Part shown: positions 2,459 through 40,104 of the stretch, piece after piece
Numbering within the stretch: position 1 is the stretch's first letter
Layout of the letters: each line of letters opens with the position of its first letter
DNA from: an uncultured Erysipelotrichaceae bacterium
GTDB taxonomy: Bacteria > Bacillota_I > Bacilli_A > RFN20 > CAG-826
DNA: 44,002 bases
NCBI GenBank assembly: GCA_902800355.1
Contig: CADCEE010000014.1
Location: 1 to 44,002, forward strand
Direction of reading: 5' to 3'
The notes under the pieces: generated by a model
Database searches by the model: none
Seen by the model: only the letters and a program-made list of their open reading frames with translations
What the model was told of the DNA's origin: nothing
Position numbers and translations under genes: made by a program

Positions 2459-3652
2459 TTAATGCTCAACATACTCCCAACCGAATCCATAAGCACTCTT
2501 TTTTGTTCCATGTCCTGGTATCTTTTTCTTCTTACATACATCGCAAATTGTTGAAGATGGGTTGCTACCTTTTGTATATCCATTATCAATAAGCCAGATA
2601 GCAGCATCCTTAGGTGTATAGAAAGTTCTGATTGTCTTGCCTGTTTTTAAATCTATCATCGCAACACCTTTTTGTTTTTTTCTTCTTCCTTCTAATCGCC
2701 TGGCTTGATTCTCTTTTTGCTCTTCTGGATGGTTTTTAATCCACTCTTTTATTGAATCGCTGTGTTTTTTCTTTGATTCTAAGCTTGCTAAAGCCTTTTT
2801 TCTATTTTCTTCCCATACCGCCAACTCGTCAGGATGTTCGTTCTTCCATTTCTGTAGGCTTTCTTTTCTTTTTGCTTTAGAGTTTGGGTCATTAATTGAT
2901 TGTCTATTCTTTTCTCTAGCGACTCTATATCCTTCAGGGTCTCGCTCTTTCCATTTTTTAATTCTTTCCCGAGACATTTCTTTGTAATAATTAGAAGACA
3001 TTTTCTCTTTAATCTTAAGACTTCTTTGTCTTATTTTCTCTTCATCAAAATTACGGGTTGCGTTAAGCATGGCCTCATATCTTTCTGGATGTTCTTTCAT
3101 ATATTGGCTTTGTTTATCTTTCCTGTATTGAGATACTGGAGCAGCAGATATTCCACCACCACCTTGAATTTTATTCAAACAGAAAGGGTCTTTGAGTAAT
3201 TCTTTATTTACTATTCTTGCCTCGATCTCCTCTGTTTCTTTTTCAGAATCACAAACGAATAAATAATAACGGGCATATCTATCACTATGTTTTTTGTATT
3301 TCGCTTTAAAAACCACACCACTTCCTGCATAGTTTTTAACTTCTCTCCAGCTCTGTCTATTAACTTTTCCTATGTAATATTCTCCAGAGTTGTAATCAAT
3401 TTGAATATAGATTGCGTGGTATTTACCGTCGGTTCCTTTGTGACGATAAAACTTAGAAACAGACACAACGTGATATTCTGCGCCTTGAATAAATATTTTC
3501 TTATCGCTTTCAAGAGGTGGTAGCCAAGTGCTTTGCTCTGGAAGTTGCAATACACTTGATTTTGATTCCAAAGGTAAAGGATTGACAGCAAACATCTTTG
3601 AAACGTCAATTCCATCATCAATAGATAAATAATCACTGAACTTTATAACCAT
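2459..3652 (-). CDS. GIY-YIG homing endonuclease with NUMOD1 DNA-binding tail
   Basis: 397 residues. Residues about 78-170 form a GIY-YIG nuclease: YIQ...GEYYIGKV is the diverged GIY/YIG pair, followed by NYAGSG, a Glu-rich segment (ETEEIEARIV) and a closing LNKIQGGGG like the NLxxGG end of the family. A long Lys/Arg/Glu-rich helical linker (residues 175-330) contains repeated KKWKERDPE/KKWKNEHPDE/KEWIKNHPEE modules resembling NUMOD-type DNA contacts. The C terminus (about 332-397) is a NUMOD1-like module: FYTPKDAAIWL, then YGFGWEYVE. Such proteins cut a specific site and promote copying of their own gene. No host intron is recognisable; it looks free-standing. A TATACT box 9 bases before the ATG may drive a leaderless transcript. 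Flanking direct repeats and the adjacent tRNA-Ala suggest acquired DNA. Confidence 0.85.
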   Translation of the reverse strand: MVIKFSDYLSIDDGIDVSKMFAVNPLPLESKSSVLQLPEQSTWLPPLESDKKIFIQGAEYHVVSVSKFYRHKGTDGKYHAIYIQIDYNSGEYYIGKVNRQSWREVKNYAGSGVVFKAKYKKHSDRYARYYLFVCDSEKETEEIEARIVNKELLKDPFCLNKIQGGGGISAAPVSQYRKDKQSQYMKEHPERYEAMLNATRNFDEEKIRQRSLKIKEKMSSNYYKEMSRERIKKWKERDPEGYRVAREKNRQSINDPNSKAKRKESLQKWKNEHPDELAVWEENRKKALASLESKKKHSDSIKEWIKNHPEEQKENQARRLEGRRKKQKGVAMIDLKTGKTIRTFYTPKDAAIWLIDNGYTKGSNPSSTICDVCKKKKIPGHGTKKSAYGFGWEYVEH

Positions 3653-25670: not shown

Positions 25671-25698
25671 TTGTTCAAATCAAATACTAGACTATAAT
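25671..25698 (+). promoter_or_regulatory. Promoter of the TPP riboswitch transcript
   Basis: TTGTTC (25671-25676) and TATAAT (25693-25698) with 16-bp spacing lie directly before the aptamer, giving a start site near 25705. Confidence 0.6.
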
Positions 25699-25699
25699 T

Positions 25700-25785
25700 A
25701 TTTTCGGGAGCTAGGTGAACCTGGCTGAGAGGATTCTGATTCGAATCGACCGTACCTGATCTAGGTAATGCTAGCGGAGGAAATG
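25700..25785 (+). promoter_or_regulatory. TPP (thiamine pyrophosphate) riboswitch aptamer
   Basis: The THI-box core is clear: GGGAGCTAGG...CTGAGAGGA for the pyrimidine-sensing arm, then ACCGTACCTGATCTAGGTAA for the pyrophosphate arm, and GCTAGCGGAGGAA closing P1. The CGGAGGAAAT at its 3' end is complementary to ATTTCTCCG at the start of the terminator hairpin, giving an antiterminator. Expected logic: TPP bound gives P1 and the terminator, and the transporter is off; without TPP the antiterminator forms. Confidence 0.93.
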
Positions 25786-25801
25786 TTATTATTAGCTATT
25801 T

Positions 25802-39438: not shown

Positions 39439-39529
39439 ATTATATCGGCCTGAAAGACGAAAACTTTTTTAATTTATTTTCACAAAAAATCAAAAAAATC
39501 GAGTCTATATATAGTAAAAGGAGATCCAT

Positions 39530-39913
39530 ATGAACTTTACAAAATATAATGGGAAACGCAAATATCACTGTCGTTATTATCGTAAGACTGGTAATCACCC
39601 TTTTCTAGTAATCATAGTCACTGAAGAAAAAGAAAAGAATGGGAAGATACTTATATCAGGTTTTAACATCACACATTCCACTATGATGGTTTCCAGAAAA
39701 CCAAATCGATACATAAAACTTAAAAAGAACCCAAACCCAAAAGATAATAAAGATAGTTTCGTTTGTATTAATCTTGTTAAAGATATTGATGCAAAATATT
39801 TCACCTCTCCAATTTTTGGCTGGGATATAAGTAAAGAAGATGAAAACGTTATTGATGATGTGCTATCAAAAAAATACCCATTAATTCACAAAAAACTAAA
39901 AAAAGAGGGCTAG
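39530..39913 (+). CDS. Orphan 127-residue basic protein
   Basis: A strong AAAGGAGA site precedes the ATG, and a TATATA box lies about 20 bases further up. The protein is Lys-rich and seems beta-rich (HPFLVIIVTEEKEKNGKILI, then FVCINLVKDIDAKYF) with a helical end (DENVIDDVLSKKYPLIHKKL). The layout vaguely recalls small SH3-barrel RNase toxins of the MazF/PemK type, but no catalytic motif can be pointed to and no antitoxin gene is adjacent, so I leave it unnamed. Its stop codon lies in the loop of a bidirectional terminator, and a structured RNA runs toward it from the other strand. Confidence 0.7.
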   Translation: MNFTKYNGKRKYHCRYYRKTGNHPFLVIIVTEEKEKNGKILISGFNITHSTMMVSRKPNRYIKLKKNPNPKDNKDSFVCINLVKDIDAKYFTSPIFGWDISKEDENVIDDVLSKKYPLIHKKLKKEG

Positions 39914-40053
39914 CCTCTCTTTTTTCGTAAATCCTCCGCCTATCCTAATAGGCATGGACGGGTGCCGTGAATACTCTCTTGGACGAATTACCATGTGGGC
40001 GAACTAAATAGGAGTCTCCCTTAATCAGAGATGGAGTATCACCCCTGAACGAT
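39895..40053 (-). ncRNA. Unidentified structured small RNA, about 160 nt (6S-like size)
   Basis: A near-consensus promoter upstream and the shared terminator downstream bound a transcript with extended pairing: end helix TAAATC (40056-40051) with GATTTA (39933-39928); GGGTG with CACCC and ATACTC with GAGTAT building a long interrupted stem; and a perfect 6-bp hairpin GCCTAT/ATAGGC near 39938-39953. No ORF or ribosome binding site. A long interrupted rod with a small hairpin on the 3' side is reminiscent of 6S RNA, but I cannot match conserved bases. Signal-recognition-particle RNA, RNase P RNA and T-box motifs are absent. Confidence 0.6.
39898..39925. terminator. Bidirectional terminator between the orphan gene and the structured RNA
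   Basis: AGAGG-GCTAG-CCTCT with T runs on both strands: CTTTTTT on the plus side and a run of seven T on the minus side. The orphan gene's TAG stop is inside the loop. Confidence 0.8.
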
Positions 40054-40057
40054 TTAT

Positions 40058-40086
40058 AGTATACAAATTGTTGATTCTAGTATCAA
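40058..40086 (-). promoter_or_regulatory. Promoter of the unidentified small RNA
   Basis: TTGATA (40081-40086), exactly 17 bp, TATACT (40058-40063) on the minus strand; one of the best promoters in the window. Confidence 0.7.
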
Positions 40087-40104
40087 TAATAAATTTAATT
40101 GAAA

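Follow-up and report, generated by a model that had tools for sequence, protein, structure and literature searches.

An RNA gene of about 157 nt and a convergent gene for a 127-aa protein share a small cassette in the window (the whole stretch of 44,002 nt analysed here, from an uncultured Erysipelotrichaceae bacterium), and the RNA is probably the antitoxin of a two-part toxin–antitoxin module, in which it binds and silences a MazF-fold ribonuclease. We favour this reading because the RNA has a covarying fold, the two genes keep a constant convergent partnership and form a cassette, the protein has a predicted toxin fold, and the decay of the module is one-sided. The features, in window coordinates, are listed below.

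39447–40101, no strand: cassette of RNA and MazF-fold gene, 0.65 kb; the whole unit is absent from G001 and G011
39530–39913, plus strand: gene for the 127-aa protein of predicted MazF/Kid fold, a presumed ribonuclease toxin (AlphaFold2 model and structural matches)
39895–40051, minus strand: RNA gene, about 157 nt including the terminator, supported by conservation in congeners and by covariance model R2
39926–40051, minus strand: structured body of the RNA, the part with the conserved, covarying fold
40058–40086, minus strand: predicted RNA promoter, TTGATA-17-TATACT
39898–39924, both strands: bidirectional terminator common to the RNA and the convergent gene, terminator-like read either way
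40025–40048, minus strand: helix P1 (40048–40040 with 40033–40025), compensatory changes in 5 of 7 modelled pairs
39997–40020, minus strand: hairpin P2 (40020–40014 with 40004–39997), compensatory changes in 7 of 7 pairs
40012–40009, minus strand: kissing bases CCUA of P2, complementary to the P3b loop
39927–39991, minus strand: stem P3, around P3b (39991–39981 with 39937–39927), compensatory changes in 8 of 8 modelled pairs
39938–39953, minus strand: hairpin P3b (39953–39948 with 39943–39938), loop complementary to that of P2
39947–39944, minus strand: P3b loop UAGG, pairing with the P2 loop

The RNA gene and its fold

The start of the RNA is predicted near 40051 on the minus strand. Its promoter matches the sigma-A-type consensus at 10 of 12 positions, which taken alone is at chance level in this AT-rich sequence (9 promoter-like sites in 3 kb, 10.9 expected); the identical −35/−10 pair is found with unchanged spacing upstream of this RNA in the related species G003 and G008. 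No ORF of at least 40 aa was found inside the RNA stretch. The RNA and the 127-aa ORF overlap by about 19 nt (39895–39913), in the terminator only, and the stop codon of the ORF falls within this shared terminator. An earlier sequence-only reading had described the promoter, the bidirectional terminator, an RNA free of ORFs and its convergence on the 127-residue gene, and all four descriptions were borne out. When distant homologs were compared with control genes, a closed stem with a U-run was seen in 41 of 50 against 24 of 59 and a promoter in 22 of 50 against 19 of 59, only a moderate difference, to which we gave no weight.

A blastn search located the RNA at 86–94% identity in three congeners. 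A first covariance model, built from four sequences, revealed divergent copies, each adjoining a homolog of the 127-aa ORF on the opposite strand, and the second model, R2, matched 34 places in 27 of the 224 genomes of the bacterial family. The R2 matches in G224, G242 and at L175:5285 were dismissed as chance. Contig ends truncate G014 and G004, and the locus counts leave out the RNA matches G011:C27 and G170:C11. The class of RNA seems to be confined to this one family of uncultured gut Bacilli, since R2 found no new copy in 120 genomes spread across the class; the family itself is known as metagenome-assembled genomes, mostly from ruminants and horse faeces.

The fold supported by covariation comprises the hairpins P1 and P2, the long stem P3 enclosing the hairpin P3b, and a loop–loop contact between P2 and P3b. 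In a MAFFT alignment of 16 copies built independently of any structure, 89.6% of the cells were paired; both partners had changed in 22 of 32 pairs, and covariation scored 0.489, compared with 0.11–0.13 when the partners were slid by one to three columns. Across 31 model-aligned rows, an alignment fitted to the model and hence biased towards the structure, 92.2% of the cells in the four helices paired and the score was 0.550; compensatory changes, whose absence among relatives was to count against the helices in the earlier reading, occurred at 25 of the 28 pairs. The excess of G-U over A-C cells showed a modest strand asymmetry (26 versus 9). The window RNA alone folds slightly, and not significantly, better than shuffled sequences (z = −1.65), and the rod of closing and central helices previously drawn from the single sequence gives way to P1, P2 and P3/P3b. 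An RNAalifold structure derived from the first four, near-identical sequences likewise proved partly wrong and was replaced after the distant copies were found. Judged by this comparison of sequences, the RNA of the window is real and structured; it is presumably also transcribed.

In 30 of the 31 rows the loops of P3b and P2 were exactly complementary, and the single exception was taken as a chance match, leaving 30 genuine copies. Complementarity was kept through five types of P3b loop (CAGG, UAGG, UGGG, UGAG and UGGA) and lies far above that of loops shuffled among rows (mean 8.2 and maximum 17 in 2000 trials), which is strong evidence for a P2–P3b kissing loop. In RNAs beside other homologs (groups L042/L046–L050, L043–L045 and L041) the two loops differ in sequence and remain complementary, according to a less rigorous comparison by eye. 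The window holds one kissing-loop unit of about 125 nt and other loci hold two or three; at several of them a second unit lies behind the first with its own complementary pair of 5–8 nt. At about half of the loci the RNA begins a short distance downstream of a tRNA gene; the gap is often too small for a promoter, suggesting co-transcription with the tRNA at these loci.

The predicted MazF-fold protein and its cassette

The 127-aa protein matched no family in Pfam, NCBIfam or PADLOC and gained no identity from PDB sequences; PHROGs gave one weak match only. Its AlphaFold2 model was confident (pLDDT 91.9, pTM 0.85), and the best twelve Foldseek matches of this model were all MazF toxins, the top one with a probability of 1.00 and an E-value of only 0.012. 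Structural alignment gave a Z-score of 9.6 with MazF-mt3 over 101 residues at 15% identity, about 8 with CcdB and 7.5 with the type III toxin CptN; a homolog with about 27% identity, when modelled, likewise matched MazF (Z 9.4). The protein is thus confidently predicted to have a MazF/Kid toxin fold with no detectable sequence similarity to that family. The link to MazF is by fold alone, since profile comparison (hhalign) with five PemK proteins of the order yielded nothing; PF02452 had no match above the curated Pfam cut-off in the window's genome. Such a lack of similarity is no objection, because the known type III toxins also diverge while keeping the fold, CptN sharing less than 15% identity with the ToxNs and retaining a Kid-like fold (PMC4627078).

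Seven residues of the protein are invariant (R15, H23, P24, T48, N67, P68 and D104). The His-Pro and Thr lie at nearly the same spacing as Arg-Pro and Thr do in the order's MazF relatives, and may form the active site. The presumed RNase activity is not guaranteed, since the invariant His-Pro (H23-P24) replaces that Arg-Pro. The protein resembles type II MazF/PemK toxins (PF02452) in its fold over the whole chain and in the His-Pro/Thr spacing, and differs from them in having no Pfam match, no profile similarity and no visible MazE-like partner. More distant homologs occur in tandem copies at L065 (three toxins) and L091, the latter also with RNA-like units, each about 70 nt long and carrying U-runs, in tandem.

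The cassette sits between the promoter of ssrA (tmRNA) and a 74-aa ORF. In the sister species G001 and G011 the flanks run from 40102/40097 (74-aa ORF) to 39446 (ssrA promoter), with short unrelated DNA between them; because the RNA and the gene are both missing at the same site, by this comparison they come and go as a unit. RNA models built without the protein locate copies that adjoin protein homologs, always on the opposite strand. Conversely, all 23 full-length homologs in the family (L036–L058) are faced at their 3′ end by a convergent RNA-like stretch with a terminator as its boundary; 11 of these stretches were identified by the covariance model, nine through two other aligned groups and three by eye. 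Two copies, in G183 and G185, are seemingly divergent, and the one in G183 faces a remnant of a second gene copy. The gene had been called a convergent orphan; convergence stands, whereas with the RNA as a constant partner of every full-length homolog it is no orphan.

Decay of the module is one-sided. Where the sequence behind the RNA is long enough, at 26 loci, the toxin is intact in 12, a remnant in seven and absent in seven, and no full-length toxin without the RNA was found, although the species are related, so that the counts are not independent events, and the small numbers limit their weight. RNA that outlives its toxin is the pattern an antitoxin predicts, which argues for that role here.

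The toxin ORF is also far more variable than its surroundings. Between the window's genome and G008, DNA identity is 62% in the toxin ORF, 86% in the RNA and 93–99.5% in the flanks. The ORF (39530–39913) is hypervariable in the comparison with G003 as well, at 61–62% for the two species, with 94–99.5% in the tmRNA flank. Because the ORF is so diverged between far better conserved flanks, it appears from these alignments that the toxin is diversifying or being exchanged, in the manner of fast-evolving conflict genes.

The antitoxin model and competing explanations

In the mechanism that we propose, the RNA would be made from its own sigma-A promoter, or, in many relatives, probably as a co-transcript of the tRNA gene directly upstream, and would fold into a compact body fixed by the kissing loop. 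The folded RNA would then bind the MazF-fold protein and block its RNA-cutting site. The protein gene would be read towards the RNA from the opposite strand, one shared terminator ending both transcripts. If the supply of RNA fell, because the cassette was lost or a phage shut off transcription, the toxin would be set free to cut cellular RNA. Antitoxin activity, RNA–protein binding and neutralisation are what we infer from comparative data. More tentatively, and with some reserve, the module may represent a separate RNA–protein toxin–antitoxin class of uncultured gut Bacilli, in which MazF-fold toxins are faced by kissing-loop RNAs, and arrays of these RNAs behind tRNA genes outlive the toxin and may give RNA immunity against related toxins.

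The constant partnership and the covarying fold would also fit if the RNA were a guide, scaffold or activator in a ribonucleoprotein with the MazF-fold protein, and inhibitor and cofactor are not directly distinguished. We nevertheless consider a functional partner of this kind unlikely: RNA units are retained where the protein gene is dead or missing, which is unexpected for an obligate cofactor, and the known MazF/Kid-fold proteins with RNA partners are toxins (PMC4627078). Type I-like antisense control, with the RNA pairing to the toxin mRNA at its 3′ end and promoting decay of the message as RatA does for txpA, would explain the convergent layout, which is shared with the Bacillus subtilis pairs txpA/RatA and bsrE/SR5. 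In those pairs, however, the 3′ overlap between antitoxin and toxin mRNA is about 114–120 nt (PMC8464778) and the toxins are small membrane peptides, whereas in the window the overlap with the ORF is confined to the short terminator, the conserved and covarying part (39926–40051) lies outside the ORF, and the toxin is a soluble predicted MazF-fold protein. Solitary RNA units and toxin-less arrays are, moreover, kept, and we judge antisense control quite improbable. An ordinary type II module, with a small unrecognised protein antitoxin and an RNA of unrelated role on the same mobile cassette, would agree with the situation in G017 and G135, where a 61-aa ORF upstream of the toxin could encode a protein antitoxin; the window has no such ORF, its cassette has room for the RNA and the toxin only, and this arrangement is very unlikely.

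The least credible explanation, to which we give almost no probability, is that the RNA is 6S or another housekeeping RNA adjoining the gene by accident; the sequence-only reading had suggested 6S from the size and rod-like shape. The size class, the sigma-A-type promoter and the position beside ssrA do recall 6S RNA, but sequence, structure and distribution are all unmatched. RF00013 had no match at E ≤ 10 in 35 genomes of the bacterial family, while it does recover 6S RNAs from other families within the order; the covarying P1, P2 and P3/P3b layout lacks the long rod and central bubble of 6S; and the RNA is patchy (8 of 19 genomes of the genus) and gained and lost together with the gene. By layout and distribution the 6S assignment is already refuted. 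The same reading had recognised no family for the RNA, and this agrees with the Rfam search it had proposed, which gave no match at the gathering score and nothing sensible at E < 10. As a separate observation, the 6S RNAs of other families in the order (L031, L032 and L034) score 43.8–46.5 bits, right around the Rfam cut-off of 46.4, so that 6S is, on these scores, under-called in this lineage.

Relation to known systems and neighbouring elements

The definition of a type III system calls for an operon in which RNA repeats come before the toxin gene and a terminator separates the two (PMC5086642). The window module resembles the type III systems ToxIN, CptIN and TenpIN in pairing a small protein of (here predicted) Kid/MazF fold and a structured, pseudoknotted RNA encoded next to it, in the presence of CptN among the structural matches, and in the tandem RNA units of some relatives. 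It differs in that RNA and gene are convergent, on opposite strands and with separate promoters, and that no sequence family is shared; the RNA is one loop–loop unit of about 125 nt in place of 34–50-nt H-type repeats (the two or three units at other loci are longer than such repeats as well), so that the pseudoknot typical of type III takes the form of a covarying loop–loop pairing that is not H-type. Because the operon with upstream repeats is absent, we do not file the module under type III, yet it probably works like one. In AbiF/RCd22, a toxic protein is neutralised by direct binding of a repeat-containing ncRNA (PMC12373285). The window module would share with this and other Abi_2 ncRNA systems an RNA-neutralised toxic protein, although their protein family is unrelated and their RNA lies upstream in the same operon.

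No arrangement like that of the window is described in the family libraries and literature searched, most subscription papers lying outside that literature. To our knowledge, few families of RNA antitoxins that bind protein toxins exist, and they are described with the RNA upstream in the toxin operon. If our reading is true, searches by the operon rule miss a sizeable group, given the convergent layout and different RNA fold, and RNA antitoxins may have become paired with MazF-fold toxins on more than one occasion. The module also gives a likely function to an RNA without an Rfam family and a protein family without a Pfam entry, and is small, with one sharp structural prediction, the kissing bases.

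Among viral contigs the window protein had no match and the RNA had one, in the IMG/VR contig L175, where an RNA array and a toxin remnant (about 2750–3210) lie among restriction-modification-like genes with two m5C methylases; from these neighbours, the setting is a defence island. Plasmid and phage collections searched with one distant homolog gave no match. L137 and L138 have, between the homolog of the 74-aa ORF and the ssrA side, another region rich in hairpins and with a U-run (GGTCATTCC...GACCC...); the window lacks this region, which is possibly a further RNA unit. The window also carries a TPP riboswitch (25694–25799, plus strand, 64.1 bits). At about 15 loci (L042–L048, L050–L052 and L054–L058), the 5′ leader of the MazF-fold gene contains the Rfam element RF02941 (COG3943 RNA), behind which come a closing stem and a U-run. 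DUF1016/YhcG-like and RhuM-like genes have this leader too, also in the window's genome (G000:C3:57686-57798), and it seems to be an attenuator that selfish or defence genes have in common.
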